Shown here piece after piece: positions 11,885-29,465 of a DNA stretch of 64,000 bases. The stretch covers positions 62,001-126,000 of the forward strand of contig NZ_AFBG01000015.1 of assembly GCF_000204195.1 (NCBI RefSeq). The letters are read 5' to 3'. The notes beneath the pieces are model-generated. The model searched no databases. It was not told the origin of the DNA and was given only the letters and a program-made list of their open reading frames with translations. A program made the position numbers and the translations under genes. This stretch comes from Acidovorax radicis N35 (lineage in GTDB: Bacteria > Pseudomonadota > Gammaproteobacteria > Burkholderiales > Burkholderiaceae_C). Position 1 is the first letter of the stretch. The number at the start of each line of letters is the position of its first letter.

Positions 11885-11938
11885 GAAGAGCAATGTACCG
11901 CTTCTGCCCCCGGCGCCCCATAGGGATAACACCAAGAA

Positions 11939-12988: not shown

Positions 12989-14428
12989 ATGCATGCAAAC
13001 CTGATTGGCGGCGCCTGGACCGACGGCGTCCGCACTTACCAAAACACCAACCCCTCCGACACGCGCGACGTGATCGGCGACTACGCCGTGGCCAGCCGCG
13101 AGCAAACCCTGGAAGCCGTGTCAGCGGCGCATGCGGCTTTCCCCGCGTGGAGCCTGTCCACGCCCCAGCAGCGTTTTGACATCCTGGACGCAGTGGGCAA
13201 CGAGATCATTGCGCGCAAGGCCGAGCTGGGCGACCTGCTCGCCCGCGAAGAAGGCAAGACCCTGCCCGAAGCCATCGGCGAAGTGGGCCGCGCGGCCGCC
13301 ATCTTCAAGTTCTTTGCGGGCGAGGCGCTGCGCCCCGGCGGCGAGTTGATCCCGTCGGTGCGCCCGGGTGTGGGCATCGAGATCACGCGCGAGCCACTGG
13401 GCGTGATCGGCATCATCACGCCGTGGAACTTCCCCATTGCCATCCCAGCCTGGAAGATCGCGCCCGCGCTTGCCTACGGCAACTGCGTGGTGTTCAAGCC
13501 CGCCGAAGTGGTGCCGGGCTCCGCCTGGGCGCTGGCCGACATCCTGCACCGCGCGGGCCTCCCAGCCGGCGTGTTCAACCTGGTGATGGGCCGCGGCGCT
13601 GAAGTGGGCCAGGTGCTGCTGGAAGACGAGCGCATTGCCGGCGTGAGCTTCACCGGATCGGTGGGCACGGGCCAGCGCGTGGCCGCGGCCTGCGTGCCGC
13701 GCGGCGCCAAGGTGCAATTGGAGATGGGCGGCAAGAACCCCTTCGTGGTGCTCGATGACGCCGACCTGGCCGTGGCCGTGGGCGCTGCCGTCAACAGCGG
13801 TTTCTTCTCGACCGGCCAGCGCTGCACCGCCAGCAGCCGCGTGATCGTGACCGAAGGCATCCACGACCGCTTCGTGGCCGCCGTGATCGAGAAGATGAAA
13901 ACCCTGAAGGTCGACGACGCCCGCAAGGCCGGCACCGACATCGGGCCCGTGGTGGACGACCGCCAGCTGGCGCAAGACCTGGAATACATCGGCATCGGCC
14001 AGCAGGAAGGCGCCAAGCTCGCCTTCGGCGGCGAAGCCCTGGAGAAGAACGCCGATGGCGCGCCCGGCTACTACATGCGCCCCGCCCTGTTCACCGAAAC
14101 CACGCCTGGCATGCGCATCAACCGCGAAGAGATCTTTGGCCCCGTGGTGAGCGTGCAGCGCGTGAAGAACTACGACGAAGCGCTGGCCCTGGCCAACGAC
14201 ACGCAGTTTGGCCTCGCCAGCGGCATCGCCACCACCAGCCTCAAGCACGCCACCCACTTCAAGCGCCACGCGCAAGCCGGCATGGTGATGGTGAACCTGC
14301 CCACGGCCGGCGTGGACTACCACGTGCCGTTTGGCGGCCGCAAGAGCAGCAGCTACGGCCCGCGCGAGCAGGGACGTTACGCCGCCGAGTTCTACACGAC
14401 GGTGAAGACGGCGTACACGCAGGCATAA
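12989..14428 (+). CDS. 2-oxoglutarate semialdehyde (2,5-dioxovalerate) dehydrogenase, first copy
   Basis: The 479-residue NAD(P)-dependent aldehyde dehydrogenase matches the sugar-acid KGSADH type that turns 2-oxoglutarate semialdehyde into 2-oxoglutarate. The catalytic pair is Glu245 (QLEMGGKN) and Cys279 (STGQRCTASS), with NAD-binding PWNFP at about residues 145-149 and FTGSVGTG near 221. The ATG at 12989 aligns with the second copy at 22736; the in-frame extension to 12899 has no ribosome site or homology. It is the last step of the uronate/aldarate route encoded on the other side of the GntR gene. A second, closely similar copy serves the pentonate operon. Confidence 0.88.
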   Translation: MHANLIGGAWTDGVRTYQNTNPSDTRDVIGDYAVASREQTLEAVSAAHAAFPAWSLSTPQQRFDILDAVGNEIIARKAELGDLLAREEGKTLPEAIGEVGRAAAIFKFFAGEALRPGGELIPSVRPGVGIEITREPLGVIGIITPWNFPIAIPAWKIAPALAYGNCVVFKPAEVVPGSAWALADILHRAGLPAGVFNLVMGRGAEVGQVLLEDERIAGVSFTGSVGTGQRVAAACVPRGAKVQLEMGGKNPFVVLDDADLAVAVGAAVNSGFFSTGQRCTASSRVIVTEGIHDRFVAAVIEKMKTLKVDDARKAGTDIGPVVDDRQLAQDLEYIGIGQQEGAKLAFGGEALEKNADGAPGYYMRPALFTETTPGMRINREEIFGPVVSVQRVKNYDEALALANDTQFGLASGIATTSLKHATHFKRHAQAGMVMVNLPTAGVDYHVPFGGRKSSSYGPREQGRYAAEFYTTVKTAYTQA

Positions 14429-14612: not shown

Positions 14613-15551
14613 TTACCCCTCTTGGGAGGGGGCGTGCAGAAGCTCAAGAAACCGGGCAGCGGCCTTGCCCACGGGCCGGTCGCTGCGCACGATGCTCCCA
14701 TAGGCAGCCAACCGGTGGCTGATGGTGTAGGGCAGTATTTTGAGCAGCCCGTGGGCCTGATAACGGCTGGCGCTGGACTCGGGAATCACCGCGATCATCT
14801 GTGTCTTGAAGATGAGGTTGGTGGTGGTCAGGATGGACGAGGTCTCGATCAGCCCACTGTGAAAGCCAGCGTGGTGGTCCCGGAACTCCTGGTCAAGCAC
14901 TTCGCGCATCGGGCTGCCGTGCGGCTGCAGGATCCACGGAAACTGCAGCATGTCCTCAAACAGCACTCGCTTGCGCCCCACCAGCGGGTGGTCGGTGGCC
15001 ACGACGATGGACAGAGGCTCCTCGCCGATCGGCCGAAAAAGCAGGTTGTCACGCACCGGGCCCAGCATGCGCCCGATGACCAGGTCCAGTGCGCCTTCGC
15101 GCATCTGGTCGACCAGCCGGTCGCTGGTGTCCACTGAAATTTCAATGGACAGCAGCGGGTAGTCCTCTTTCAGCCGAATCAGCGTGTCCGTGAGCTGCTC
15201 GGGCGAAGCCGCCATGATGGAGCCGATGCACAGCTTGCCAGCGCCTCCCAGGCGCAGGGCCTGGAGCTCCCGGTTCAGCGCCTCCATGGTGCCGCGCATG
15301 CCGCGAAACGTGCCCATCACCGCCTGCCCTGCCGCATTGAGCTGCAGGCCACGCCCCACCCGATCAAACAGCCGCTGGCCCAGCGCGTCCTCCAGTTCGT
15401 GAAGCATCTTGGTCGCCGCAGGCTGGGTCATGCCCATGCGCTGGGAGGCGGCATGCAGGGTGCGGTGCTCGTCAATCGCCAACAGCAACGCCACCTGCCG
15501 CATTCGCAAGCGATTGAGCAATTGGGAAGTGGTGTCGGTGGTCTGCTCCAT
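14613..15551 (-). CDS. LysR-family transcription regulator (GbpR-like)
   Basis: The 312-residue protein has an N-terminal helix-turn-helix at about residues 16-74 (ALLLAIDEHRTLHAAS, MTQPAATKMLHELED) and a two-lobed periplasmic-binding-like effector domain from about residue 100. Divergent LysR genes of the GbpR type control sugar transport and sugar-acid operons in Azospirillum and Agrobacterium; this one faces such an operon. The ATG at 15551 is used, with GGGG seven bases upstream; a TTG four codons earlier is the alternative. The gap to the operon contains a LysR-like inverted repeat. The inducer is unknown but should be the sugar or acid of the operon. Confidence 0.9.
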   Translation of the reverse strand: MEQTTDTTSQLLNRLRMRQVALLLAIDEHRTLHAASQRMGMTQPAATKMLHELEDALGQRLFDRVGRGLQLNAAGQAVMGTFRGMRGTMEALNRELQALRLGGAGKLCIGSIMAASPEQLTDTLIRLKEDYPLLSIEISVDTSDRLVDQMREGALDLVIGRMLGPVRDNLLFRPIGEEPLSIVVATDHPLVGRKRVLFEDMLQFPWILQPHGSPMREVLDQEFRDHHAGFHSGLIETSSILTTTNLIFKTQMIAVIPESSASRYQAHGLLKILPYTISHRLAAYGSIVRSDRPVGKAAARFLELLHAPSQEG

Positions 15552-15594
15552 TGATAACCCCAAGGAATCATTTAATCAAATAGTTTCAATATAC

Positions 15595-15646: not shown

Positions 15647-15769
15647 ATGAGCAAGCTCTCATGGCAGCGAAAGGCGGACGCAGCCACAGGCGCAACGGCC
15701 TGTACTGGCAAGCCCTCGCCGGCCCCGGTCGAACGCCGATCCACACGCCTGGCAAAGGAACTGTCGTGA
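15647..15769 (+). CDS. 40-residue small ORF coupled to the sugar ABC ATPase
   Basis: A short frame starts with ATG at 15647, eight bases or so after a strong AAAGGAG ribosome site, and ends with TGA at 15767-15769. Its stop overlaps the GTG start of the ABC ATPase by four bases (GTGA). The product begins MSKLSWQRKADAA, has a Cys, several Pro and a basic C-terminal half ending in RLAKELS. There is no signal peptide or membrane segment. I do not recognise it. The good ribosome site and the overlap suggest it is translated, either as a leader that couples translation to the ATPase, as a small protein, or as the remnant of a longer gene. Confidence 0.5.
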   Translation: MSKLSWQRKADAATGATACTGKPSPAPVERRSTRLAKELS

Positions 15770-17286
15770 GCCCACCCATGCTCTCCATCAGCCACCTGAG
15801 CAAGCGCTTTGGCGGTACCCAGGCCGTGGACGACGTCTCGCTGGACCTGCATGCCGGTGAGATTCTTGCCCTGCTGGGCGAGAACGGCGCTGGAAAATCC
15901 ACGCTCATCAAAATCCTCGCCGGGGTCTACAGCCAGGACAGTGGCAGCATCACCCTGCAGGGGCGCCCCGAAAGCGCCTGGCGTGGCCAGACACACGACC
16001 GGCATGCCATGGCGTTCATCCACCAGGACCTGGGTCTCGTGGAATGGATGACGGTGGCAGAGAACGTGGCCATCGGCATGGGGTTTCCCCGCCGCCACGG
16101 GCTGTTCATCGACTGGAAGCAGGCGCAGGCCAATGCGCGCCGCGTGCTGTCGCATGTGGGCTGCGACATCGACCCCATGCGCCGCGTCTTCACGCTGACC
16201 CGCACTGAAAAGTCCCTGCTCGCCATCGGCCGGGCGCTCGACACCAATGCCCGTGTGCTGGTGCTGGATGAACCCACGGCCAGTCTCCCCATGGCCGACG
16301 TACAGCGCATGTTCCAGTTGCTGCGCCAACTGCGCGCCAAAGGGGTGGCGATGGTCTACGTGTCGCACCGGCTCGACGAGGTCATGGACATTTCCGACCG
16401 CGCCGCCGTCATGCGCGACGGCAAGCTGGTGGGAGTGCGCCACACGGCCGAGACCAACGAACACGCGCTGGTCGAACTCATCGTGGGCCGCAAGTTCGAA
16501 GTGCCCACCCGCAAGGCCAGCAGCGCCACGCAGCAAGTGGTCCTCCAACTACAGGACGTGTACACCGCCAACGCCGGCCCGGTCACGCTGACCGCCCATC
16601 GTGGAGAGGTGCTGGGCCTCATCGGCCTGCGCGATGCCGGGCACGAGGCGATCAGCCGCGCACTGTTTGGCCTGTCAGACCTGGCGGGCGGGCAGATCGC
16701 GCTCAACGGCCAGCGCATCGCGCCACGCAACCCGGCGCAGGCCATTGCACTGGGCGTGGCGTTGGTCGCGGCAGACCGGATCGAAGAAAACCTGGCACCC
16801 ACCTTGTCGGTGCAGGAAAACCTGTTTCCCAACCCGGGGCTGGTGCTGGGCCGGCTGCTGGCACGGCTGACGCGACGCACCGAACACACCCAGGCGCAAG
16901 GCCTGATCCAGCGGTTTGACGTGAACCCACCCGCGCCCCACGCGGACATCCAGAACCTCAGCGGCGGCAACCAGCAAAAGGTGGTGCTGGCGCGCTGGAT
17001 GCATCTGAACAAACCGCTCCTCATCCTGGAAGAGCCCACCGCCGGTGTCGATGTCGGCGCCAAGCAGCAGATCTACGCCATCTTGCACGCCCAGGCTTGC
17101 GCCGGTGCCTGTGTGCTGGTGGTCTCTACCGACTTTGAAGAGGTGGCCAACGTCTGCAACCGCGCACTGGTGTTTCGCGACGGCCGCGTCGCCACCGAGC
17201 TGTCAGGCGATGCCCTCACGGTGGCGGGCCTGCTGGTGGCTGCGTCAGGTCAACCTTCCCCACTTTCCACAGAGGCCACAGCATGA
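15766..17286 (+). CDS. sugar ABC transporter ATP-binding protein (MglA/RbsA type)
   Basis: The 506-residue protein has two ABC domains, as in ribose/galactose/arabinose importers. Domain 1 has Walker A GENGAGKST (about residues 41-49) and Walker B VLVLDEPTAS; domain 2 has the usual degenerate Walker A (GLRDAGHEA), the signature LSGGNQQK and Walker B LILEEPTAG. The signature of domain 1 is atypical (TLTRTEKSLLAIG instead of LSxGQxQ), and the second Walker B has Glu where Asp is usual. The GTG at 15766 is chosen because AAAGGA precedes it by six bases and it overlaps the stop of the small ORF; the frame is open upstream to 15661 but without support. It provides ATP hydrolysis at the inner membrane for sugar uptake. 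Confidence 0.9.
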   Translation: MSPPMLSISHLSKRFGGTQAVDDVSLDLHAGEILALLGENGAGKSTLIKILAGVYSQDSGSITLQGRPESAWRGQTHDRHAMAFIHQDLGLVEWMTVAENVAIGMGFPRRHGLFIDWKQAQANARRVLSHVGCDIDPMRRVFTLTRTEKSLLAIGRALDTNARVLVLDEPTASLPMADVQRMFQLLRQLRAKGVAMVYVSHRLDEVMDISDRAAVMRDGKLVGVRHTAETNEHALVELIVGRKFEVPTRKASSATQQVVLQLQDVYTANAGPVTLTAHRGEVLGLIGLRDAGHEAISRALFGLSDLAGGQIALNGQRIAPRNPAQAIALGVALVAADRIEENLAPTLSVQENLFPNPGLVLGRLLARLTRRTEHTQAQGLIQRFDVNPPAPHADIQNLSGGNQQKVVLARWMHLNKPLLILEEPTAGVDVGAKQQIYAILHAQACAGACVLVVSTDFEEVANVCNRALVFRDGRVATELSGDALTVAGLLVAASGQPSPLSTEATA

Positions 17287-18392
17287 GCTCATCCATCAAA
17301 CCCACCGCGCTGGAGCCGGACCCCTCATTCGACCGAAAGACCACGAGCCTGCTGGGCAGGGTCAGCCGGCATGTCCCGGTGTATGGCCTGCCCGCCCTCA
17401 CTGTGGCACTGATCGCGCTGTTTTCGGTGCTGCTGCCTGACAGCTTTCCTACGCTGTTCAACCTGCGCTCCATCCTGGCGGACAAGGCCGTCATTGCGTT
17501 GCTGGCGCTGGCCGCAACCATCCCGATGATGACGGGGAAGATCGACCTCACGGTGGGTTACGGCATCGTGTTGTGGCACATCCTGGCGATCAGTCTGCAG
17601 ACGAAGTTTGGCATCTCGTGGCCCGTGGCGGTGCTCATCGTGCTGGCCTGTGGTGCGCTCTTCGGTCTGCTCAACGGAATCCTGGTGGAGCAGGCGCAAA
17701 TTGACTCGTTCATTGCCACGCTGGGCACCGGCACCGTGCTGTACGCGGTGGCGCTGTGGCACAGCGGCGGGCGCCAGGTGCTGGGCGAGCTGCCGGATGG
17801 ATTCCTGGCGCTGGCTGGCGGCGACCTGCTGGGCTTGCCCATCACAGCGTTCTACGTGCTGGGCATCGCGGTGATCCTGTGGCTGGTCAGCGAGCACACG
17901 CCCATTGGCCGCGCCCTGTACGTGATCGGCTCCAACCCCAAAGCCGCAGTGCTCAACGGCATTCCATTGCAGCGCTGCGTGATGGGGGCGTTCGTCGCAT
18001 CCGGCGCCCTGTCGGCGGTTGCCGGGGTGGTGCTCGCATCGCGCCTGCAGATCGGGCAGGCGGGTGTGGGGCTGGAATTCCTTTTGCCCGCACTGGTCGG
18101 CGCATTTCTGGGCTCCACCACGATCCGGCCAGGCCGGGTCAACGTCTGGGGCACGCTGGTCGGCGTCGCCATTCTTGCCGTAGGCATCTCGGGCATCCAG
18201 CAGTTTGGCGGCGCCTTCTATGTCGAGCCGCTGTTCAACGGATTGACCCTCCTGGTTTCCATCGGAATCGCCGGCTACGCACAGCGCAAGCGTGGTCAGT
18301 CGATCAAGCGACGCATTGCACAGCAGCAGCTGGCTACCGAGCCCACACCCGCGCCATCCGGCGCACCCACCGCGAAAACTGCCTCGGTCTGA
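17283..18392 (+). CDS. sugar ABC transporter permease (RbsC-like)
   Basis: The 369-residue inner-membrane protein belongs to the BPD_transp_2 permeases of pentose/hexose importers. It has an N-terminal cytoplasmic stretch of about 40 residues, then eight to ten hydrophobic segments up to about residue 335. The conserved coupling stretch near residues 205-225 (THTPIGRALYVIGSNPKAA type) fits the family. The ATG overlaps the ATPase stop by four bases (ATGA). The C-terminal 35 residues are hydrophilic and rich in Pro and Ala. Confidence 0.92.
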   Translation: MSSSIKPTALEPDPSFDRKTTSLLGRVSRHVPVYGLPALTVALIALFSVLLPDSFPTLFNLRSILADKAVIALLALAATIPMMTGKIDLTVGYGIVLWHILAISLQTKFGISWPVAVLIVLACGALFGLLNGILVEQAQIDSFIATLGTGTVLYAVALWHSGGRQVLGELPDGFLALAGGDLLGLPITAFYVLGIAVILWLVSEHTPIGRALYVIGSNPKAAVLNGIPLQRCVMGAFVASGALSAVAGVVLASRLQIGQAGVGLEFLLPALVGAFLGSTTIRPGRVNVWGTLVGVAILAVGISGIQQFGGAFYVEPLFNGLTLLVSIGIAGYAQRKRGQSIKRRIAQQQLATEPTPAPSGAPTAKTASV

Positions 18393-18418
18393 GGCCTATA
18401 AAAAAGGAGACATGCACC

Positions 18419-19519
18419 ATGAAAACATCCACCACCCTTCGCCACACCCTGCTGGCGGCCGCTCTGTGCGCCGGGCTCAACGGCATGGCCGGTGCCCAGG
18501 ACTTCCTGGCCACGGCCAAGGCCAAGGTGGCTGCTGCCACCAGCGCCAAGACGAAATGGGATGGGCCCACCACGGGCCCCAAGGCGGCAGCCGATAAAAC
18601 CATCGTCTACGTGGCCTCCGACATGCGCAACGGCGGCGTGCTTGGCGTGTCCAAGGGCGCTGAGGAAGCCGCCAAGGCCATCGGCTGGAAGATTCGTGTG
18701 CTGGACGGTCAAGGCACGGTGCAAGGCCGAACGGCCGCTTTCAATCAGGCCATCGCGCTCAAACCCGCGGGCATCCTGCTGGGCGGTTTCGACGCCAAGG
18801 AACAGGCTGCAGGCGTCAAAACCGCCACCGGCAGCAAGATCCCCGTGGTGGGCTGGCACGCGGCCAAGGAAGCAGGCGCAGTGGACGGCATGTTCTTCAA
18901 TGTGACGACCAACGCCCAGGACGTCGCCGAGATCGCCGCGCTGCATGCGGTAGCCACCTCCGACGGCAAGGCCGGCGTGGTGGTGTTCACGGACTCCGCC
19001 TACGCAGTGGCCATTGCCAAGTCCAATGCCATGGCAGACGTGATCAAGAAGTGCACCGGCTGCACGCTGCTGGGGGTGGAGGACACGCCGCTGGCAGACA
19101 CCTCCAACCGCATGCCGCAACTGACCACCTCGCTGATTCAGCGCCATGGCGCCAAGTGGACGCACTCGCTGGGCATCAACGATCTGTACTTCGACTTCAT
19201 GGGGCCCACGCTGCAATCGGCGGGTGGTGCGGCGAAGGATCTGAAGAACCTGTCGGGCGGCGACGGTTCCGAATCGGCCTACCAGCGCATCCGCACCGGC
19301 CGCTTCCAGGCAGGCACCGTGCCCGAGCCGCTGAACCTGCACGGCTGGCAGATGGTGGACGAGATCAACCGCGCCCTCGCTGGCGAGAAAGCCAGCGGCT
19401 ATTCCACGCCCGTGCACCTGGTCACGGCAGACAACATCAAGGGCGACGGCGGTCCCAAAAACAGTTTCGACCCCGACAACGGCTACCGCGACGCCTACAA
19501 AAAAATCTGGGCGAAGTAA
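18419..19519 (+). CDS. sugar ABC transporter substrate-binding protein
   Basis: The 366-residue periplasmic protein has a signal peptide ending after GAQ (about residue 27) and a type I periplasmic-binding fold of the ribose/galactose class (VYVASDMRNGGVLGVSKG at about residues 61-78, VVGWHAAKEAG near 142). Two Cys residues in KKCTGCTLL may form a disulfide. The ATG at 18419 has AAAAAGGAGA eight bases upstream, which decides the start; the frame is open far upstream only because it lies within the permease gene in another frame. It binds the sugar or sugar acid degraded by the enzymes that follow. The exact ligand is not known. Confidence 0.9.
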   Translation: MKTSTTLRHTLLAAALCAGLNGMAGAQDFLATAKAKVAAATSAKTKWDGPTTGPKAAADKTIVYVASDMRNGGVLGVSKGAEEAAKAIGWKIRVLDGQGTVQGRTAAFNQAIALKPAGILLGGFDAKEQAAGVKTATGSKIPVVGWHAAKEAGAVDGMFFNVTTNAQDVAEIAALHAVATSDGKAGVVVFTDSAYAVAIAKSNAMADVIKKCTGCTLLGVEDTPLADTSNRMPQLTTSLIQRHGAKWTHSLGINDLYFDFMGPTLQSAGGAAKDLKNLSGGDGSESAYQRIRTGRFQAGTVPEPLNLHGWQMVDEINRALAGEKASGYSTPVHLVTADNIKGDGGPKNSFDPDNGYRDAYKKIWAK

Positions 19520-19551
19520 GCCCGCCATTTCACTACCAAGAGAGTTCACGC

Positions 19552-20583
19552 ATGTCTTCTTCTCCCCAACCTGTGGTCGCCCTGACCCTTGGTGACCCCG
19601 CCGGCATCGGCCCCGAACTGATCGCCCGATTGATGGCGCAGGAAGAGCTGATGCGCCTGGCCAATGTGGTGCTGGTCGGCGACCGCTGGTTGTGGGAGGA
19701 AGGACAGCGCATCGCGGGCAAAACGGTCCCCACCGTCGGCGTGGAAAGCCTCGCGGCCGTGCGCCATCGCAGCGACTTTTCGCAGCCCGCGTTTTTGGAG
19801 GTGCAGACCGTGGCACCCGAACAGGTGACACGCGGCATGGCCCAGGCTCCGGGGGGCAAGTCGGTGCTCAAGGTTTTGGACCAGTGCATGGACGCCGCCC
19901 TGGCGCGGCAGGTGGACGCTATCTGCTTTGCTCCCCTCAACAAATTTGCCATGAAGCAAGGTGGCCTGCAGCACGAGGACGAGCTGCACCACTTTGCCCA
20001 GCACCTGGGCGTGACCGGTTACTTCTGCGAATTCAACACGCTGGGCACGCTGTGGACATCGCGCATTTCTTCGCACGTGCCTCTGCTGGACGTGGGCCGC
20101 TACCTGACGCCCGAGCGGATCATTGCAGCCACCCAGTTGATCTACCGTTCGCTGCAGGCGGCGGGCGTGGCACAGCCTCGCGTGGCCGTGGCCGCCCTCA
20201 ACCCCCATGGCGGTGACGGCGGCACCTGTGGCCGCGAAGAAATCGACACGATCATTCCGGCCGTCAAGACACTCAACGAACAGGGCCTGCCGATTGCGGG
20301 CCCGTTCCCGGCGGACACCATCTTTCTGAAGGCACGCGACGGCGAGTTCGACGCCATCGTCACCATGTACCACGACCAGGGCCAGATCGCCATCAAGCTG
20401 CTGGGCTTCAGCCGGGGCGTCACGGTCCAGGGAGGGCTTCCGGTGCCCATCACGACCCCCGCCCACGGCACGGCCTACGACATTGCCGGCAAAGGCACCG
20501 CCAGCGTCGACGCCACAGCCAATGCCTTCCGTATCGCGTGCCGCATGGGCCAGTCCTACCGCGACGGCATCGCATTCCATTGA
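19552..20583 (+). CDS. PdxA-family dehydrogenase (PdxA2/TphB-like)
   Basis: The 343-residue protein is a member of the PdxA (4-phosphohydroxy-L-threonine dehydrogenase) family. The N-terminal [13 protein letters not shown] signature and three metal-ligand His segments are intact: [14 protein letters not shown] and [10 protein letters not shown]. True pyridoxine PdxA is usually next to ksgA; PdxA2 enzymes act with a DUF1537 kinase on phosphorylated tetronates, and TphB of Comamonas acts on a non-phosphorylated diol. Here no kinase is encoded anywhere in the window and all neighbours serve a sugar-acid pathway, so oxidation of a sugar-acid hydroxyl is more likely than vitamin B6 synthesis. The ATG at 19552 has AAGAGAG upstream. 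Confidence 0.8.
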
Positions 20584-20615
20584 CCCAGATACCCCACACA
20601 TCAGGAGGAAGCCTC

Positions 20616-21788
20616 ATGAAAATCAAATCCGTCCGCGCCCGTGTCTTTGAATGGAAGGGCCCCACCGTTCCACCCCAGGGCAACTTCTGCTCCAACGCCA
20701 TGGACCTCGTCTATTCGAAGACCGAGACCATGAGCACCTTCCGCTTCCACTCATGGACCGTGGTGGAAATCGAGACAGACGACGGCATCGTGGGCTTGGG
20801 CAACGTGGCCCTGGCGCCCAAGATCGCCAAGGCCATCATCGACGAGTACCTGGCGCCCCTGGTCATTGGCCAGGACCCCTGGGACTACGAATACCTGTGG
20901 CAGCGCATGTACCGCGCCACCCACGCCTGGGGCCGCAAGGGCGTGACGATGGGCGCCATCTCGGCGGTGGACCTAGCCATCTGGGACATCCTGGGCAAGA
21001 GCGTGAACAAGCCGGTGTTCAAGCTGTTGGGCGGACGCACCAAGGAAAAAATTCCCTGCTACTACAGCAAGCTCTACCGCACGGATCTCGATGAAATGCA
21101 AAAGGAGGCCCAGACCTTCAAGGACCAGGGCTTCACCGCCTTCAAGATGCGGTTTGGCTACGGCCCGGCCCACCTGCAACAGGGCGTGGCAGAGAACCTC
21201 AAGTCGGTGGCCGCAGTGCGTGAAGTCATCGGCTACGACGCCGACCTGATGCTCGAGTGCTACATGGGCTGGAACGTCGAATACGCAAAGCGTATCTTGC
21301 CCAAGCTCGAGAAGTACGAGCCCCGCTGGCTGGAAGAGCCGGTCATCGCCGACGACGTGGATGGCTATGCCGAACTGAACCAGCTGACCAGCATCCCGAT
21401 CTCAGGCGGCGAGCATGAATTCAGCCTCTACGGTTTCAAGCAGCTGCTCGACCGCAAGGCCGTGAGCGTGGTGCAGTACGACACCAACCGCGTGGGCGGC
21501 ATCACGGCGGCCCACAAGATCAACGCGCTGTGCGAGGCCTACAGCGTGCCTGTCATTCCCCACGCCGGGCAGATGCACAACTACCACCTGACCATGAGCA
21601 CTCTCGCCTCGCCCATGGCCGAGTATTTCCCCATGTTCGACGTGGAGGTCGGCAATGAGCTGTTCTATTACATCTTTGCGGGCGAACCGGTGGCAGACAA
21701 CGGCTTTGTGCAACTGGACGACCACACCCCCGGCCTGGGCCTCACGCTCAAGACGGAGTTCCTCGACCAGTTCGTCATCACCGAATAA
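20616..21788 (+). CDS. enolase-superfamily sugar-acid dehydratase (RhmD/mandelate-racemase type)
   Basis: The 390-residue protein has the capping domain and barrel of the mandelate racemase/muconate-lactonizing family and resembles L-rhamnonate and L-lyxonate dehydratases. Metal ligands correspond to Glu in MLECYMGW, Glu in RWLEEPV and Glu in SGGEHEF; the catalytic His/Asp dyad fits PHAGQMHN and QYDTNRVGG. The first ligand is usually Asp, so Glu here is notable. It should remove water from a pentonate or 6-deoxyhexonate to give a 2-keto-3-deoxy acid. The ATG at 20616 follows AGGAGGAA by six bases; upstream in-frame starts are rejected. It sits between the PdxA-like gene and araD, taking the place of the IlvD/Edd L-arabonate dehydratase of the known pathway. 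Confidence 0.85.
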
Positions 21789-21797
21789 GGCGCAGCC

Positions 21798-22727
21798 ATG
21801 GCATCCGCCCAAGCCCCCCGCTACCGGGGCATCTTCCCCGTCGTTCCGACGACATTCGCCGAGTCGGGTGCACTCGACCTTGAAAGCCAGAAACGCTGCC
21901 TCGACTTCATGATCGACGTCGGTGTGGATGGCCTCTGCATCCTGGCCAACTTCTCCGAGCAGTTCTCGCTGTCCGACGCCGAGCGCGAGACGCTGACCCG
22001 CGTCTCCCTGGAACATGTGGCCGGCCGCGTGCCGGTCATCGTCACCACCACCCACTACGGCACCCGGGTCTGCGCCGAGCGCAGCCGCGCCGCACAGGAC
22101 ATGGGCGCCGCTATGGTGATGGTGATGCCGCCCTACCACGGTGCCACCTTTCGCGTGCCCGAAGCGCAGATCTATGAGTTCTACGCCCGTGTGTCCGATG
22201 CGATCAGCATCCCGATCATGGTGCAGGACGCCCCCGCCAGCGGCACCGTGCTGTCGGCCCCCTTCCTCGCCCGCATGGCGCGGGAGATCGAGAACCTGGC
22301 TTACTTCAAGATCGAAGTGCCGGGTGCGGCCAGCAAGCTGCGCGAGCTGATCCGCCTGGGCGGCGCGGCCATCGAAGGCCCGTGGGACGGCGAAGAGGCC
22401 ATCACCCTGCTGGCCGACCTGGATGCGGGTGCCACCGGCGCCATGACAGGCGGCGCCTTCCCCGATGGCATTCGCCCCATCATTGAGGCGCACCGCCAGG
22501 GTGACATGGACCAGGCCTTTGCGCTCTACCAGCGCTGGCTGCCGCTCATCAACCACGAAAACCGCCAGGGCGGCATCCTGACGGCCAAGGCCTTGATGAA
22601 GGAAGGCGGCGTGATCGCCTGCGAAGCGGGCCGCCACCCCTTCCCGGCCATGCACCCTGAAGTGCGCCGCGGCCTCATCGACATCGCGCGCCGGCTGGAC
22701 CCGCTGGTGCTGCGCTGGGCGCGTTGA
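21798..22727 (+). CDS. araD: 2-keto-3-deoxy-L-arabonate dehydratase (DapA family)
   Basis: The 309-residue enzyme matches Azospirillum L-KDA dehydratase (also 309 residues) along its length from memory of that sequence. It turns 2-keto-3-deoxy-L-arabonate (L-2-keto-3-deoxypentonate) into 2-oxoglutarate semialdehyde. The Schiff-base Lys is about residue 171 (AYFKIEVPG) in the DapA fold; ANFSEQFSLS and QDAPASGT replace the canonical GTTGE and YNVPGR segments as in the AraD subgroup. The symbol follows the Azospirillum usage and is unrelated to E. coli ribulose-phosphate epimerase araD. It starts nine bases after the dehydratase stop. Confidence 0.9.
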   Translation: MASAQAPRYRGIFPVVPTTFAESGALDLESQKRCLDFMIDVGVDGLCILANFSEQFSLSDAERETLTRVSLEHVAGRVPVIVTTTHYGTRVCAERSRAAQDMGAAMVMVMPPYHGATFRVPEAQIYEFYARVSDAISIPIMVQDAPASGTVLSAPFLARMAREIENLAYFKIEVPGAASKLRELIRLGGAAIEGPWDGEEAITLLADLDAGATGAMTGGAFPDGIRPIIEAHRQGDMDQAFALYQRWLPLINHENRQGGILTAKALMKEGGVIACEAGRHPFPAMHPEVRRGLIDIARRLDPLVLRWAR

Positions 22728-22735
22728 AAGCAAGC

Positions 22736-24181
22736 ATGAAAACCCATCCCAACTTCATCAACGGCGAGTGGCGCGAAGGCGACTCACTGAGCCCCAACAT
22801 CAATCCCAGCAACCTGGCGGACGTCATCGGCGAATACGCCATGGCGTCGACCAGCGACGTCAACGATGCCGTCGCCGCGGCTCGCAGCGCACTGCCCAGC
22901 TGGAGCACGGGTTCGGTGCAGGCACGCAGCGACGCGCTGGACCGCATTGGCACCGAAATTCTGGCGCGCCGCGAAGAGCTGGGTGCACTGCTGTCCCGCG
23001 AGGAAGGCAAGACCCTGCCGGAAGGCATTGGCGAAGTGACGCGGGCCGGCCATATCTTCAAGTTCTTTGCCGGGGAGTCTTTGCGTCTGAGCGGAGAACT
23101 TTTACCTTCGGTGCGGCCGGGCGTTGGGGTCGAAATCACGCGCGAACCCGTGGGCGTGGTCGGGCTGATCACGCCCTGGAATTTCCCCATCGCCATTCCG
23201 GCCTGGAAAATTGCGCCAGCACTTGCCTGGGGCAACTGTGTCGTCTTCAAGCCAGCAGACCTGGTGCCAGCCAGTGCCTGGGCGCTGGCGGACATCATCG
23301 CGCGCAGTGGGATTCCCGAAGGCGTGTTCAACCTGGTCATGGGCAAAGGCAGCGTGGTCGGTGAAGCGCTGGTGGAACACCCCGGGGTGGACGCAGTGAG
23401 CTTCACCGGCTCGGTGGGAGTGGGCCGCAGGATTGCAGAGGCCTGCGCGCGCAATCTCAAGAAGGTGCAGCTGGAAATGGGCGGCAAGAACCCCCAGGTC
23501 ATTCTTGACGATGCTGACCTGAAGCAGGCAGTCGAGCTCTCCGCGCAATCGGCGTTTTATTCGACCGGGCAGCGATGCACCGCCTCCAGCCGACTAATCG
23601 TGACGCAAGGTATTCACGACCGCTTCGTTGTGGCGCTTAAGGAGCGCATGGCCAGCTTGCGCGTGGGGGACGCGCTCTCGCAAGGCACGGACATTGGGCC
23701 GGTGGTATCGGCAAGCCAGCTCGAGCAGGACCAGTTCTACATCGGCATCGCGCGCAGCGAAGGCAGCACGGTGACCGGCGGCCACCGCGTGCCTTGCCAC
23801 ACCGGCAGTGCCCAAGAAGGTTACTTCCTGGCGCCGGCACTGGTGACGAACACCACCAACGCCATGCGCATCAACCTGGAAGAAGTTTTTGGCCCGGTGG
23901 CCAGTGTGGTCTGCGTCAAGAACTACGAAGAGGCGCTGGCCACCGCCAACGACACGATTTTTGGGCTGTCCGCCGGCATTGCCACCACCAGCCTGAAACA
24001 CGCTGCGCACTTCAAGCGCCACATCCAGGCGGGGATGTGCATGGTGAATTTGCCTACGGCGGGGGTCGACTACCACGTGCCTTTTGGCGGGCGCAAGGGC
24101 AGCAGCTACGGGCCCAAAGAGCAAGGCAGCTACGCCCGCGACTTCTACACCAGCATCAAGACTGCTTACACCTTGGCATGA
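22736..24181 (+). CDS. 2-oxoglutarate semialdehyde dehydrogenase, second copy
   Basis: The 481-residue aldehyde dehydrogenase is a close paralogue of the one at 12989. Glu247 (QLEMGGKN) and Cys281 (STGQRCTASS) are the catalytic pair, and the PWNFP and FTGSVGVG coenzyme segments are intact. It converts the product of AraD to 2-oxoglutarate and closes the pathway. The ATG at 22736 is used; a TTG four codons upstream overlaps the araD stop. Its last codons overlap the start of the lactonase gene (ATGA). Confidence 0.92.
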   Translation: MKTHPNFINGEWREGDSLSPNINPSNLADVIGEYAMASTSDVNDAVAAARSALPSWSTGSVQARSDALDRIGTEILARREELGALLSREEGKTLPEGIGEVTRAGHIFKFFAGESLRLSGELLPSVRPGVGVEITREPVGVVGLITPWNFPIAIPAWKIAPALAWGNCVVFKPADLVPASAWALADIIARSGIPEGVFNLVMGKGSVVGEALVEHPGVDAVSFTGSVGVGRRIAEACARNLKKVQLEMGGKNPQVILDDADLKQAVELSAQSAFYSTGQRCTASSRLIVTQGIHDRFVVALKERMASLRVGDALSQGTDIGPVVSASQLEQDQFYIGIARSEGSTVTGGHRVPCHTGSAQEGYFLAPALVTNTTNAMRINLEEVFGPVASVVCVKNYEEALATANDTIFGLSAGIATTSLKHAAHFKRHIQAGMCMVNLPTAGVDYHVPFGGRKGSSYGPKEQGSYARDFYTSIKTAYTLA

Positions 24182-25125
24182 CCATGACCACGACGACTGA
24201 CGCACTGTTGCCGCCGCAAATTCTCGACACACGAGCCTCCCACGTGCTGCGCGGCGCGCGCCTGGAGCACCTGTGCACGGGGGCCCTCTGGAGCGAAGGG
24301 CCCGTGTGGCTGTCGCAGGATGATTGTGTGTTGTGGAGCGACATTCCCAACAACCGCATCCTGCGCTGGTCGGCCCTTGACGGAATGACGGTGTGGCGCA
24401 GCAACGTGGAGTTCACCAACGGCCACACCCTGGACCTCGAGGGCCATCTGCTGCACTGCTCCCACGGCCTGCGCGCCATCGTTCGCACCCCGCTGGTCAA
24501 TGGCCAAATCCATGCAGACACTCCAGACGCGGTGATCGTGGATCGCTATCTTGGCAAACGCCTGAACTCACCCAACGACATCGTCGTGCGCAGCGACGGA
24601 ACCATCTGGTTCACCGACCCGCCCTACGGCATCCTCAGTGACTACGAAGGCCACAAGGCATCCAGCGAGCTGGCAGGCAATTACGTCTTCTGCTACGACC
24701 CTGCAAACCACACGCTGGAGATCGCCAGCGACTTCATCGAAGAGCCCAACGGCATCGCGTTCTCGCCCAACGAGCGCCTGCTGTACGTCAGCGACACCTC
24801 TGCCGCGCTGCGGCAGGACGGCTCCGGAAACCACCACATCGTGGCCTTTGAGGTCGAGGGAAAACAACTGCACAGGCCCCGCGTGCTGGCTGTCATAGAA
24901 CCCGGGCTGGCAGACGGCTTTCGGGTCGACCGCCAAGGCTGGGTCTACACCAGCAGCGCAGACAGCGTGCAGGTCATCCACCCCGACGGAACGCTGCTCG
25001 CACGCGTCCCGGTCCCGGAGAAGGTCGGCAACCTGACCTTCGGCGGTAGGGACGGCCAGTCGCTCTTCATCGCCGCAAGTACCTCGCTGTACCGCGTTTC
25101 GCTCAACACCTCTGGAGATCAATGA
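24178..25125 (+). CDS. SMP-30/gluconolactonase-family lactonase, second copy
   Basis: The 315-residue propeller protein contains WSEGPVW near residue 41 (metal-binding Glu), NSPNDIVV near residue 132, EEPNGIAFSPN near residue 192 and LADGFRVD near residue 240, the usual ligands of this lactonase family. It likely opens the aldonolactone produced from the pentose. Start and stop both overlap neighbours by four bases (ATGA at 24178 and 25122), so it is tightly coupled in the operon. Its relation to the lactonase at 10088 is distant, consistent with a different lactone. Confidence 0.87.
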   Translation: MTMTTTTDALLPPQILDTRASHVLRGARLEHLCTGALWSEGPVWLSQDDCVLWSDIPNNRILRWSALDGMTVWRSNVEFTNGHTLDLEGHLLHCSHGLRAIVRTPLVNGQIHADTPDAVIVDRYLGKRLNSPNDIVVRSDGTIWFTDPPYGILSDYEGHKASSELAGNYVFCYDPANHTLEIASDFIEEPNGIAFSPNERLLYVSDTSAALRQDGSGNHHIVAFEVEGKQLHRPRVLAVIEPGLADGFRVDRQGWVYTSSADSVQVIHPDGTLLARVPVPEKVGNLTFGGRDGQSLFIAASTSLYRVSLNTSGDQ

Positions 25126-26057
25126 CCATGACCCGTGATGTACTGCTGCTTGTCGAAAAATGCAGCCACTGCTTTAGCTATTACGACCTGGAGAGTGGTG
25201 AGCGCACGGCGAGCATTGCACTGCCCGAATTTCCGCACGAGTTTGTGGTCGATTCCCGGCAGGACTTTGCCTACATCGGCCACTATGGCGTGGAAACCTC
25301 GGGCCATCTGGGCCAGGGCGGCACCAGCATCTTCCAGATCAACATCAGAGAGCGCCGCCTCGAACGCACCATCAACATTGCGCCATTCAACCGCCTGCAC
25401 GGGCTGCAGATCGATAACCTTGACCGGCTCTACGCACTGAGCGAAGACCGTGCCCAACTGGTGGTGCTGGACCACCCGGCCACAGATGTCGCCCCCCGCC
25501 GCGCGGTCCCCACCGGAGGCATCAAAAGCCATCTCTTCGCGCTGACGCGCGATGGCCAGACGGCGTACTCCATGAACCTGCTGTCCCACACGGTCACGAA
25601 GGTTCGGCCCTACGACGCCACCTTCTCGCCCGTGGCCTGCAGCCCGGGGGAAAAGCCGGAAGGCTATGCGCTAAGCGAAGACGAAAAGACCTTGTATGTC
25701 ACCTGCCGTTGGAGCAACACGCTGTGCGCCATCGACACGGACACGATGCAAGTCAAGCGCAGCGCACCTTCGCGCGATGACGCCACACGGCTGTACCTCA
25801 GCCGAGACGGCCGGCTCATCGTCACGAACTACGGCGAGCGAAGCCTGTCCATTGTGGACCCCGAGACGCTGCAAGAGATCGCTCACATTCCAATGCAGGC
25901 GCGCGCCATTGCGCTGAGCCTGCACCCCACCAAGCCACTGGCCTTGGTGAGCCAGGACAACGACCAGTTGGGGTACTTCAACCTCACCACCCTTTGCTTT
26001 GATCGCTGGATGTCCACGCAACGTGAGCCCGACGTATCGCGTGTCGTCAGGCTCTAA
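25122..26057 (+). CDS. cytoplasmic beta-propeller protein (YncE-like)
   Basis: The 311-residue protein is built of repeated blades ending in SxD or VxDP-type turns, and resembles YncE/lactonase-like propellers. No signal peptide is present, unlike most YncE proteins. It has two Cys in an EKCSHC motif near residue 13 of the N-terminus. No catalytic pattern can be claimed. It is the last gene of the operon and overlaps the lactonase by four bases, which suggests a role in sugar-acid metabolism, perhaps as another lactonase or a chaperone of the pathway. Confidence 0.6.
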   Translation: MTMTRDVLLLVEKCSHCFSYYDLESGERTASIALPEFPHEFVVDSRQDFAYIGHYGVETSGHLGQGGTSIFQINIRERRLERTINIAPFNRLHGLQIDNLDRLYALSEDRAQLVVLDHPATDVAPRRAVPTGGIKSHLFALTRDGQTAYSMNLLSHTVTKVRPYDATFSPVACSPGEKPEGYALSEDEKTLYVTCRWSNTLCAIDTDTMQVKRSAPSRDDATRLYLSRDGRLIVTNYGERSLSIVDPETLQEIAHIPMQARAIALSLHPTKPLALVSQDNDQLGYFNLTTLCFDRWMSTQREPDVSRVVRL

Positions 26058-26202: not shown

Positions 26203-26970
26203 GTGACTGATTGGCTTCACTGGCTTATGACCCCCATCAGCGGGGCACCGACCCACAGCATTGCGCCGTGGGCCTACTGGCATGCGCGGCTCATGGTGTT
26301 GGCATGGGCCTTTGTGCTGCCCCTGGGCGTGATGGCCGCGCGGTTTTTCAAGGTCACGCCGGGGCAGGACTGGCCGCAGGTCAAGGACAACAAGGCCTGG
26401 TGGCGCGCGCACCGGTGCCTGCAATACACGGGCGTCATCGCCATGCTTTTCGGCCTCTACCTCGCCTGGGGACAGGGCTCGGGCCGCACCGCAGCGGCGC
26501 TCTGGCATGCCAGGTTGGGGTGGACGGTGGTCGCGCTGGGCGTGCTGCAGATTGGCGTGGCATGGGGTCGGGGCAGCAAGGGTGGCCCCACCGACCCGCG
26601 GATGGCCGGAGACCACTACGACATGACGCCATGGCGCACCACATTCGAATGGACGCACAAGGCGGGAGGCTACCTGGCGCTGCTGATTGCGGTCGCTGCG
26701 GTATTCACCGGACTCACCGCGGCAGACGCTCCCCGCTGGATGTGGCTGGCCATCGGGCTGTGGTGGATCAGCCTGGTGGTGGTCTTCGTCGTGATGCAAC
26801 GGCAAGGGCGGTGCATGGACACCTACCAAGCCATCTGGGGGCCAGACACCGGCACCCAAGCCAGTCGCAAGCGCCCCACGGGCTGGGGTGTTCGGCGGTA
26901 CGCGGCATCCGAATGGACAACGAAGTTTGGACCGGCCCGCCAGGGCCCCCAGCGACCCACAAAGCAATAG
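26203..26970 (+). CDS. cytochrome b561-like membrane protein
   Basis: The 255-residue protein has five or six hydrophobic helices, with His residues in WYxWHARL near residue 27, WWRAHRCLQ near 69, LWHARLGW near 101 and WTHKAGGYL near 150. These are spaced like the heme-b ligands of eukaryotic-type b561/DOMON-associated proteins. It is likely an inner-membrane electron carrier. A GTG at 26203 is the start; the ribosome site is weak. The 15-base gap to the ABC ATPase suggests cotranscription, although no functional link with sugar import is obvious. Confidence 0.65.
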   Translation: MTDWLHWLMTPISGAPTHSIAPWAYWHARLMVLAWAFVLPLGVMAARFFKVTPGQDWPQVKDNKAWWRAHRCLQYTGVIAMLFGLYLAWGQGSGRTAAALWHARLGWTVVALGVLQIGVAWGRGSKGGPTDPRMAGDHYDMTPWRTTFEWTHKAGGYLALLIAVAAVFTGLTAADAPRWMWLAIGLWWISLVVVFVVMQRQGRCMDTYQAIWGPDTGTQASRKRPTGWGVRRYAASEWTTKFGPARQGPQRPTKQ

Positions 26971-26985
26971 ACACCAGGAGAACCC

Positions 26986-28092
26986 ATGTCAGGACTTGAA
27001 CTAAATAACGTGGTCAAACGCTTCGGCGATGTGACGGTCGTGCAACAGATGGACCTCACGATCCACGAGGGGGAATTTGTTGTACTGCTGGGTGAATCCG
27101 GTTGCGGAAAAAGCACCACCCTTCGGATGATTGCCGGCCTGGAAGAGGCCTCGGAGGGAAAGATCTTCATCGCAGGACGCGACGTCACGAACATGGCGCC
27201 GATGGAGCGCGATATCGCGATGGTGTTTCAGAACTACGCCTTGTACCCGCACATGGACGTGGCAGAGAACATGTCGTTTGCGCTGCGGCTCCTGGGGCGC
27301 CCTAAAGCCGAGATCGCCGAAAAAGTCGGTACCGCCGCGAAGATCCTGAGCATTGAGCATCTGCTGAACCGAAAGCCCAAGGAGCTGTCGGGTGGGCAAC
27401 GCCAGCGTGTGGCCATCGGGCGCGCCATCGTGCGCGAACCCAAGGTGTTCCTGTTTGACGAACCCCTGTCCAACCTGGACGCCAAGCTGCGCGGGCACAT
27501 GCGGGCCGAACTCGCCATCCTGCACGAGCGTCTGGGCAAAACCACGGTCTACGTGACGCATGACCAGATCGAAGCGATGACGCTGGCGTCTCGCATCGTG
27601 ATCTTCGACAAAGGCCGCATTCAGCAGATCGGGACGCCGTCGGAAGTGTTCACACGGCCCGCCAGCATTTTTGTGGCGGGTTTCATCGGAACCCCAACGA
27701 TGAACTTCTTCAAAGCCCGCTATACGCAGGAACACGGCGTGGGGCTTTTACGGGGCGAAGGCTTTGCGTGGCCAGCTCCCGACTGGCTCATTGGGCAATC
27801 GCCCCGGCCTGACCAGGCGCTGACGCTGGGCATACGGCCACAGGCGTTTCGCCCCAGTACCAGCACCGGCACTAACGAGAGGCCGCTGCTGAAGCTGCAG
27901 GTGGATGTCGTGGAGTACCTGGGCACCGAAAGCCAGGTGGTCGGGCACATGAACACCCCCGGCGGCCAGCGGGTGGCGGCCATGCTGCCGGGCAATGCCC
28001 AGGCGTCGCTGCACCAGAACATCCACCTCGATTTCGATCCCCAGGACATGCACGTGTTCGAGACCGATTCAGGCCGCTCGTTGCGCACATGA
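26986..28092 (+). CDS. ABC transporter ATPase (UgpC/MalK type)
   Basis: The 368-residue protein is a single-domain sugar-type ATPase with a regulatory C-terminus (TOBE-like) from about residue 240. Walker A GESGCGKST is at about residues 36-44, the signature LSGGQRQR near residue 132, and Walker B VFLFDEPLSN near 152. The ATG at 26986 follows CAGGAG by a few bases. It energises the permease pair encoded downstream. The substrate, by family, is a glycerophosphodiester, polyol or oligosaccharide; which one is not shown. Confidence 0.92.
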   Translation: MSGLELNNVVKRFGDVTVVQQMDLTIHEGEFVVLLGESGCGKSTTLRMIAGLEEASEGKIFIAGRDVTNMAPMERDIAMVFQNYALYPHMDVAENMSFALRLLGRPKAEIAEKVGTAAKILSIEHLLNRKPKELSGGQRQRVAIGRAIVREPKVFLFDEPLSNLDAKLRGHMRAELAILHERLGKTTVYVTHDQIEAMTLASRIVIFDKGRIQQIGTPSEVFTRPASIFVAGFIGTPTMNFFKARYTQEHGVGLLRGEGFAWPAPDWLIGQSPRPDQALTLGIRPQAFRPSTSTGTNERPLLKLQVDVVEYLGTESQVVGHMNTPGGQRVAAMLPGNAQASLHQNIHLDFDPQDMHVFETDSGRSLRT

Positions 28093-28121
28093 ACCACAGT
28101 TTTTACCCAGGAGACAACACC

Positions 28122-29453
28122 ATGAAAAGACGCGATTTCGTCAAAAGTGCGGGCACTACGGTCTTTGGCGCGGGGCTTCCGCTCAGCGGCGCGCGGGCAC
28201 AAAACCGCTACGCCAAGTACGCAGGCCAGACCGTGACCTTCAGCATCCCGGCCCATCCACACTACGACGCGATGGTGAAGATCTTGCCGGAGTTCACCAA
28301 GGAAACCGGCATCAAGATCGAGACGGATCGCCTGGCCATGGGGCGCATGAAAGAAAAGCAGTTGCTCGAAATGGCCAAGCCCCAGGGCGACTACGACCTG
28401 GGGAGCTATGTCGTGATGTGGAAGGGTGAGTACGTTTCCAAGAACCTTATCCAGCCACTGGAACCTTTCCTGAAAAACCCGGCGCTTGCAGACCCCGCCT
28501 ACGACCTCAAGGACATCATCCCGGTCTACCTAGAAAACCTGGGCATGGTAGGCGGTCCCAAGGGCTACCTTGCCGGCCCCGGCGCCAAACTCTATGGCCT
28601 GCCTTACGGCGCAGAAACATCGGTGCTGGCGTACCGCAATGACATTTTTGCAAAGCACAACCTGAAGGCGCCAGAGAACTACACCGAGTTCCGCAAGCTG
28701 CTGCGCGTGATCAAGGACAAGGAGGGCATCGGCGCACTGGCATCGCGCGGTCAAGCTGGCCACCAGGCCGTACACGCCTGGCTGCTGCACCTGAACCCCT
28801 TGGGCGGCAGCGTGTTCGATGACCAATGGCGCGCCCGCTTCAATGACAAGATCGGCGTGGAAGCACTCCAGTTTCTGCAGGAAGTGGTCGCCACGGGCCC
28901 CGCGGGCATCGCGGGGTATGGCCAGGGTGAAAGCAACACCGCCTTTCTGCAGGGCCAGGCAGCCATGTACCTCGATTCCACCTCGTTGGCCGGCCTGGTG
29001 AACGATCCGACCAAGTCCAAGGTGGCAGGCAAGGTGAGCTGGGCACTGCACCCGGCCGGTACGCGCAGGGCGTCGCAGTCTGGCGGCCTGGGGCTTGCCA
29101 TCGCCAAGAATGCGAAGAACGCGGACGCGGGCTTTCTGCTGATGCAATGGCTCACGTCCAAAGAGCAGGACAGGGCCGTCACCAAGGTGGGCGGAGCACC
29201 CACGCGCAACTCCACGCTTTCTGATGCAGACCTCGTGCGCCAGTACCCCGAGTTCATTACCTTCAAGGAAGCCCTCAAATATTCGAACCCCGACTGGCGC
29301 CCGATCATCCCCGTGTGGGACAAGATCAACGTCCAGGCGCTGGGCATTGGAATCTCCGAGGCGCTCACCGGCAAAAAGACCGCAGAAGCTGCGTTGAACG
29401 ATCTGGTCGCGCCCGTCACACAGATGATGCGCGAAGCAGGCTACAAGGTCTGA
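28122..29453 (+). CDS. extracellular solute-binding protein family 1, Tat-exported (copy 1)
   Basis: The 443-residue protein starts with MKRRDFVKSAG, a Tat-type twin-arginine signal, with likely cleavage after ARA near residue 25. The rest is a family 1 binding protein (VTFSIPAHPHYDAM, MWKGEYV, GLPYGAETSVLAYR, WRPIIPVWDKIN). The ATG at 28122 is preferred to the in-frame ATG at 28089, which overlaps the ATPase stop, because AGGAGA precedes it and it begins exactly at the Tat signal. It feeds the MalF/MalG-like permeases. A second copy, similar along its whole length, lies beyond the chemoreceptor at 32802. Confidence 0.9.
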   Translation: MKRRDFVKSAGTTVFGAGLPLSGARAQNRYAKYAGQTVTFSIPAHPHYDAMVKILPEFTKETGIKIETDRLAMGRMKEKQLLEMAKPQGDYDLGSYVVMWKGEYVSKNLIQPLEPFLKNPALADPAYDLKDIIPVYLENLGMVGGPKGYLAGPGAKLYGLPYGAETSVLAYRNDIFAKHNLKAPENYTEFRKLLRVIKDKEGIGALASRGQAGHQAVHAWLLHLNPLGGSVFDDQWRARFNDKIGVEALQFLQEVVATGPAGIAGYGQGESNTAFLQGQAAMYLDSTSLAGLVNDPTKSKVAGKVSWALHPAGTRRASQSGGLGLAIAKNAKNADAGFLLMQWLTSKEQDRAVTKVGGAPTRNSTLSDADLVRQYPEFITFKEALKYSNPDWRPIIPVWDKINVQALGIGISEALTGKKTAEAALNDLVAPVTQMMREAGYKV

Positions 29454-29465
29454 GGCCAGGGCACC

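Follow-up and report, generated by a model that had tools for sequence, protein, structure and literature searches.

In Cupriavidus necator H16, L-ascorbate catabolism reportedly begins with a cytochrome b561 and a gluconolactonase, which together deliver 2,3-diketo-L-gulonate; through a benzilic acid rearrangement, a WD40-like protein is said to turn this compound into 2-carboxy-L-lyxonolactone, an amidohydrolase to open the lactone, and a PdxA-family enzyme to decarboxylate the resulting 2-carboxy-L-lyxonate to L-lyxonate, which then enters the known L-lyxonate route. An operon of Acidovorax radicis N35 resembles this pathway as described: a cytochrome b561, a gluconolactonase-family protein, a propeller, a PdxA-family enzyme and an L-lyxonate route are all encoded side by side. 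The operon lies on the forward strand of a 64,000-nucleotide stretch (contig NZ_AFBG01000015.1, positions 62,001 to 126,000; hereafter the window), which is part of a 5.5 Mb genome. I propose, with a probability of roughly 0.84, that it encodes a bacterial pathway of L-ascorbate (vitamin C) catabolism that runs through L-lyxonate, the substrate most likely being L-ascorbate or dehydroascorbate. Most of this biology has been described before, and the variant seen here is a modest one.

Two other systems share parts of the lower half. Like the L-arabinose route attributed to Azospirillum, the operon has an AraD-type L-2-keto-3-deoxypentonate dehydratase and an alpha-ketoglutarate semialdehyde dehydrogenase (KGSADH), but an enolase-superfamily dehydratase replaces the IlvD/Edd enzyme, and PdxA, the propeller and the cytochrome b561 are added. 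The L-lyxonate pathway of Pseudomonas aeruginosa PAO1 is likewise said to consist of a dehydratase with a KxR motif, Arg179 and His316, a keto-deoxy-lyxonate dehydratase and a KGSADH, all of which have counterparts here. According to passages of PMC3557286, the PAO1 region contains two kinds of transporter, one of the major facilitator superfamily (MFS) and one of the tripartite tricarboxylate type, as well as a gene of the fumarylacetoacetate hydrolase family. The present operon differs from that of PAO1 in having an AraD-type dehydratase of the DHDPS family and ATP-binding cassette (ABC) importers.

The observations concern gene content, gene order, protein families, conserved residues and co-occurrence. 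From about 15767 to 26057 on the plus strand lie, in this order, the genes for an importer, PdxA, the dehydratase, AraD, KGSADH, an SMP-30 lactonase and the propeller, that is, every gene listed by a previous sequence-only reading of this DNA and in the order it gave. That reading stopped one gene short on the right, where the cytochrome b561 gene (26203-26970) follows. The importer ATPase and permease genes overlap by 4 bases, as do AraD and KGSADH, KGSADH and SMP-30, and SMP-30 and the propeller; the gaps are 26 bases between permease and binding protein with the ATG at 18419 (29 when computed from 18422), 11 between binding protein and PdxA, 32 between PdxA and the dehydratase, and 9 between the dehydratase and AraD. 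The several four-base overlaps noticed earlier are thus four if KGSADH starts at TTG 22724, and three if it starts at ATG 22736.

The dehydratase (20616-21788, plus strand; enolase superfamily, MR subgroup) matches, over residues 1 or 2 to 390, the PDB chains 3SSZ, 3STP and 3SQS at 634, 630 and 621 bits; 2OZ3, the next chain, reaches 209, and of the chains named rhamnonate dehydratase the best, 3FXG, reaches 197. The earlier label "RhmD-type" is therefore replaced by membership of the 3STP group, 3STP being reportedly the L-lyxonate dehydratase of Labrenzia. The characterized L-lyxonate dehydratase reportedly has a KxR motif, a His-Asp dyad, His316 and Arg179. The residues K177-x-R179, D289 and H316 of the present protein, which presumably represent this signature, are invariant in all 92 aligned dehydratases (the window protein plus 91 homologues of at least 60% identity with unbroken frames). 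None of the six other MR/MLE-family proteins of the same genome has R179; Lys is found at this position in four of them, Asn in one and Gln in one. One protein of 84% identity is named L-lyxonate dehydratase by its JGI source, and the other listed homologues, where named, are mostly called L-rhamnonate dehydratase. The L-rhamnonate dehydratase model itself, the best-scoring one in NCBIfam, was rejected at 237.8 bits for a cut-off of 393. Taken together, chain matches and residues support the prediction that the enzyme is an L-lyxonate dehydratase. The sequence-only reading had argued that an enolase-superfamily enzyme dehydrates an L-pentonate that is not L-arabonate, and had offered L-lyxonate, L-xylonate and L-ribonate; its argument holds, and the residues point to the first of the three.

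The two enzymes that follow are compatible with this assignment. The AraD-type protein (21798-22727, plus strand; DHDPS family) carries a lysine at 171 and matches L-2-keto-3-deoxyarabonate dehydratase at 548 bits (3FKK) and 547 bits (7C0C). All four L-pentonates share the configuration at C4 and so yield the same L-2-keto-3-deoxypentonate. The match to an arabonate-pathway enzyme therefore fits L-lyxonate, and it is the dehydratase, not AraD, that discriminates between L-pentonates. In Sphingomonas parapaucimobilis, a gene annotated araD1 (locus L107, 13184-14167) stands in place of the DHDPS-family AraD. The predicted KGSADH (22724-24181, plus strand; Pfam Aldedh) has its best NCBIfam match in AlphKGSA_gudD, at 499 bits under a cut-off of 770, and its Cys and Glu motifs were located.

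The PdxA-family protein (19531-20583, plus strand; Pfam PdxA, 284 bits) is not the biosynthetic enzyme: it scores 258.2 bits against TIGR00557, whose cut-off is 290.35, and lacks the loop GHTE. The window protein was compared with 83 homologues. All 84 sequences keep three histidines, lack GHTE and have Thr298 in place of the biosynthetic Asn; the Arg is replaced at 307 by Ile in 82 and by Val in 2. MAFFT and ungapped HMMER alignments place the loop differently, and GHTE is absent in both. The other PdxA of the genome, on a different contig (C12), has GHTE, Asn and Arg. I assume that the conserved histidines are metal ligands and that the replaced residues bind the phosphorylated substrate. 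The protein thus shares its family and the three histidines with biosynthetic PdxA and with PdxA2, the D-threonate 4-phosphate dehydrogenase (6E85), but differs from both in GHTE, Asn and Arg. Those operon proteins that were scanned for families include no kinase, which, together with these replacements, fits a substrate that is not phosphorylated. The enzyme is proposed to be a decarboxylase that would form L-lyxonate from 2-carboxy-L-lyxonate.

Three further proteins would belong to the upstream half. The SMP-30/gluconolactonase-family protein (24178-25125, plus strand; Pfam SGL; 210 bits to the gluconolactonase 3DR2) keeps E40, N133 and D206, presumably its metal ligands, in 20 of 20 sequences. 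The protein encoded at 25122-26057 (plus strand) is predicted by structure modelling to be a beta-propeller of seven blades and 28 strands. The cytochrome b561 (26203-26970, plus strand; Pfam Cytochrom_B561, PF03188, 30.4 bits for a cut-off of 23) has six histidines that are invariant in 15 of 15 sequences, and it occurs alongside the same pathway genes in Variovorax, Sphingomonas and Paraburkholderia. Taken together, these three and PdxA correspond to the first part of the route reported for L-ascorbate in C. necator. The start from a pentose or pentonate proposed by the sequence-only reading is therefore not supported; the early PdxA-type step that it had allowed is retained.

Every substrate, and all the chemistry upstream of L-lyxonate, is assigned here by correspondence with that reported pathway. 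The cytochrome b561 would take electrons from ascorbate at the membrane, and the sugar-type importer would take up ascorbate or the neutral lactone dehydroascorbate. SMP-30 would hydrolyse dehydroascorbate to 2,3-diketo-L-gulonate, which the propeller would convert into 2-carboxy-L-lyxonolactone by a rearrangement of the benzilic acid type. A lactonase would open this lactone, and L-lyxonate would arise when the PdxA-family enzyme removes one carboxylate. Two dehydrations would follow, the first of L-lyxonate to L-2-keto-3-deoxypentonate by the enolase-superfamily enzyme and the second of this product to alpha-ketoglutarate semialdehyde by AraD, and KGSADH would oxidize the semialdehyde to alpha-ketoglutarate. 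A passage of PMC11066805 gives the conversion of diketogulonate to 2-carboxy-L-lyxonolactone and on to L-lyxonate as chemistry, and a passage of PMC10444878, which cites Stack 2020 and Ghasempur 2014, names a COG4948 enzyme as necessary for an ascorbate degradation pathway; both passages support the correspondence.

A comparison of gene neighbourhoods, as the earlier reading had suggested for the dehydratase, indicates that this gene set is not a chance assembly. In the stretches around the 80 best dehydratase relatives from named genomes, mainly of Comamonadaceae and other Burkholderiales and several of them cut by contig ends, PdxA occurs in 75 and AraD in 71, and a LysR-type regulator of at least 49% identity in 66; LysR (at any identity), PdxA, dehydratase and AraD are found together in 63. 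PdxA therefore belongs with the dehydratase. Dehydratase-type genes of this group also lie near sulfatase genes on plasmids of Marinovum algicola (L109, 6282-16869) and Polaromonas sp. P1-6 (L104, 14220-15851), so some relatives may feed the route from sulfated sugars. In two Cupriavidus records, a cluster like the one described for C. necator was not seen: EM10 has a dehydratase of 67% and a PdxA of 52% identity with no propeller within 12 kb, and P-10 has a propeller and an SMP-30-like protein, both with N-termini resembling twin-arginine translocation (Tat) signals, with no dehydratase within 15 kb.

The propeller was followed separately in 47 genes drawn from three sources, namely the dehydratase loci, annotated stretches of plasmids and other genome stretches, some of which were picked because they hold a propeller. 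Clade A was defined as the 17 genes whose product is at least 60% identical to that of the window. Clade B comprises 30 rows, which represent 29 genes because two loci (L029 and L110) overlap and share one; three rows (L116, L118 and L119) were taken from a different setting. Two propellers were left out of these counts, one cut by a contig end (L013) and one with an interrupted frame (L104), which is 50% identical and lies behind genes for SMP-30 and a cytochrome b561. The new observation is that the clades differ in their partners: clade-A propellers pair with SMP-30, and clade-B propellers mostly precede an amidohydrolase. Except in L051, every clade-A propeller (16 of the 17) has SMP-30 directly upstream at a distance of at most 13 bases, and no amidohydrolase was found within 1.5 kb of any of the 17. 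In clade B, by contrast, an amidohydrolase gene follows within 1.5 kb downstream in 22 of the 30 rows, and SMP-30 is found within 1.5 kb in one (L116, where it is Tat-like). Cytochrome b561 occurs in three of the 30 clade-B loci, and all three genomes also carry clade A.

The split is not a neat one. The Ruegeria (L106) and Phaeobacter (L120) propellers are only 42-44% identical and have SMP-30 some kilobases away, with no amidohydrolase found in either locus, and SMP-30 is present somewhere in six clade-B loci (L106, L110, L111, L116, L117 and L120). Nor is the amidohydrolase tied to the propeller, since its homologues occur without a detected propeller in six loci (L011, L018, L021, L026, L027 and L038). 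Both clades occur together on plasmid pPHS1_P of Paraburkholderia graminis and in genomes G016 and G228. They have in common K13, H16, H39, E40, D44, R91, H93, D98, R102, E108, K135, H137, E180, R196, D205, D220, R223, E302 and D304, which suggests one kind of reaction. Away from the dehydratase, a propeller relative and an SMP-30 relative within 12691-15939 of L116 and a propeller relative at 7887-8912 of L118 carry Tat-like export signals; these are possibly periplasmic versions.

Whole genomes were searched as well, namely this one and 24 others chosen from the loci after their gene content had been seen. Thirteen of them carry a propeller of clade A (G001-G011, G016 and the present genome); of these, 12 have an SMP-30 of at least 60% identity, the exception being G006, and two (G005 and G016) have an amidohydrolase of at least 50% identity; G007 has one of 37%. 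The other 12 genomes, which were chosen largely for the amidohydrolase and one of which holds the query, all have an amidohydrolase at 50% or more and none has SMP-30 at 60% or more; one of them (G015) gave no propeller match. Four of the clade-A genomes (G001, G006, G008 and G009) are metagenome bins and possibly incomplete. In an order-wide survey, the propeller was detected at an E-value of 1e-50 in 4 of 300 genomes, one being the present genome, too few for statistics.

The transporter genes also vary between loci. The importer of the operon consists of a two-domain ATPase of the AraG/RbsA type (15767-17286; Pfam ABC_tran in two stretches; NCBIfam AraG at 419 bits, under a cut-off of 689), a permease (17283-18392; Pfam BPD_transp_2) and a periplasmic binding protein with a signal-peptide-like N-terminus (18419-19519; Pfam Peripla_BP_4), all on the plus strand. 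The same importer accompanies pathway genes in L065, L076, L111, L117 and Phaeobacter, where a permease of 69% identity adjoins genes for propeller, PdxA, dehydratase, AraD, an aldehyde dehydrogenase and SMP-30; TctC, tripartite ATP-independent periplasmic (TRAP) or MFS transporter genes take its place in L017, L043 and L048. If a neutral lactone, for instance dehydroascorbate, were the compound taken up, a sugar-type importer in combination with a lactonase would suit it.

Several facts weigh against an ascorbate pathway. The match is to the published route as reported and to passages of papers that cite it, and among the NCBIfam matches listed no protein reaches an equivalog cut-off. The cytochrome b561 gene starts 145 bases past the propeller gene, and although it is present in 12 of the 17 clade-A propeller loci, it is missing from the other five. 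Unlike in the pathway described for C. necator, no amidohydrolase was found in the window, and a search of the genome found no close homologue: the query, the propeller-adjacent enzyme of relative L017 (assumed to be the same as the enzyme of the described pathway), has a single match, of 34% identity and 71 bits, in a genome that holds nine Amidohydro_2 matches, eight of them above cut-off. The opening of 2-carboxy-L-lyxonolactone is consequently left without an assigned enzyme. SMP-30 may perform both lactone steps.

Is the upstream half needed at all? The operon could instead serve exogenous L-lyxonate or its lactone, using the importer, SMP-30, the dehydratase, AraD and KGSADH, with PdxA and the propeller unrelated. 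The lower half is indeed complete here, and a passage of PMC10413270 calls PA2214 of P. aeruginosa a putative L-lyxonate transporter. Such a restriction is nevertheless unlikely: it has to contend with the presence of PdxA in 75 of 80 dehydratase loci and with the 4-base overlap of the propeller and SMP-30 genes, which are also direct neighbours at 16 of 17 clade-A propellers, and it leaves the cytochrome b561 without a role.

Readings with another acid fare worse. If PdxA were the first dehydrogenase of a pathway for L-xylonate, L-ribonate or a corresponding pentose, the sugar-type importer would fit and AraD would, on general chemical grounds, accept the product; yet the dehydratase bears the signature reported for L-lyxonate dehydratase and stands well apart from the other groups with solved members, no aldose dehydrogenase family appeared among the operon proteins scanned, and the substrates of PdxA enzymes are presumably hydroxy acids rather than aldoses. 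I regard this as very improbable. Lower still stands a pathway for a 6-deoxyhexonate, L-rhamnonate, as the automatic name L-rhamnonate dehydratase would have it. Many public records use that name and the best NCBIfam model bears it, but the 238 bits obtained are far below the cut-off of 393, chains of the 3STP group score 620-634 bits against 197 for the best chain named rhamnonate dehydratase, and its partners, AraD and KGSADH, are enzymes of C5-acid breakdown; this reading is hardly tenable.

Within the L-ascorbate pathway through L-lyxonate, a tentative hypothesis, for which I would give somewhat worse than even odds, is that two modules of the vitamin C route can replace one another and are entered at different points; some genomes carry both. 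Module A would consist of cytochrome b561, the sugar ABC importer, SMP-30 and a clade-A propeller and would admit ascorbate or neutral dehydroascorbate; SMP-30 or the propeller would also open the rearranged lactone, so that the amidohydrolase would not be needed. Module B would combine an MFS, TRAP or TctC transporter with a clade-B propeller and the amidohydrolase, mostly without SMP-30 or cytochrome b561, and would admit the anion 2,3-diketogulonate formed from vitamin C outside the cell.

The flanks of the operon hold further candidates for the same regulon and one cluster that looks distinct. A LysR-type regulator gene (14613-15563, minus strand; Pfam HTH_1 and LysR_substrate) diverges from the operon. 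Between them, a 40-codon open frame (15647-15770, plus strand) with a GGAG-type site ahead overlaps the likely GTG start of the ATPase at 15767 by 4 bases; no conserved counterpart was found in the loci searched. On the other side, the cytochrome b561 gene is followed by a second ABC importer of the UgpC/MalE type (26986-31181, plus strand; ATPase, binding protein and two permeases, the last recognized by Pfam), then by a chemoreceptor and another binding protein. The two ABC importers are a possible difference from the C. necator system. Homologues of the second importer occur in the same order in L012, L019, L049, L078 and L108, and it is possibly an extra transporter of the same regulon. 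L019 and L049 come from Acidovorax strains that share the gene order seen here. Its binding proteins (28089-29453 and 32802-34148) are 54% identical to each other, and two are also present in Variovorax (L108). The chemoreceptor (31219-32778) is unusual in its domain order, the MCP signalling domain being followed on its C-terminal side by a Cache-type match; its position inside the second ABC operon makes chemotaxis toward the same substrate possible.

To the left lies a divergent cluster (5239-14428), with minus-strand genes for a GarD-type dehydratase, a TRAP transporter, an SMP-30 protein and an epimerase-family dehydrogenase. They are accompanied by a GntR regulator and by another dehydrogenase of the KGSADH type (12989), which is 66% identical to that of the operon. 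This cluster looks like an oxidative uronate-to-aldarate route, likewise ending at alpha-ketoglutarate, which would explain the second dehydrogenase without recourse to the operon. Six plus-strand frames in this region gave no family match, the genes there being on the minus strand.

The assignment turns the annotation "rhamnonate dehydratase / PdxA" into a specific prediction, namely that vitamin C, a major plant metabolite, is consumed by the bacteria that have this gene set. The assignment also gives the sugar-type ABC importer two candidate ligands, ascorbate and dehydroascorbate. Finally, the propeller, with its short list of invariant residues, becomes a tractable case of an enzyme that possibly runs a benzilic acid rearrangement.

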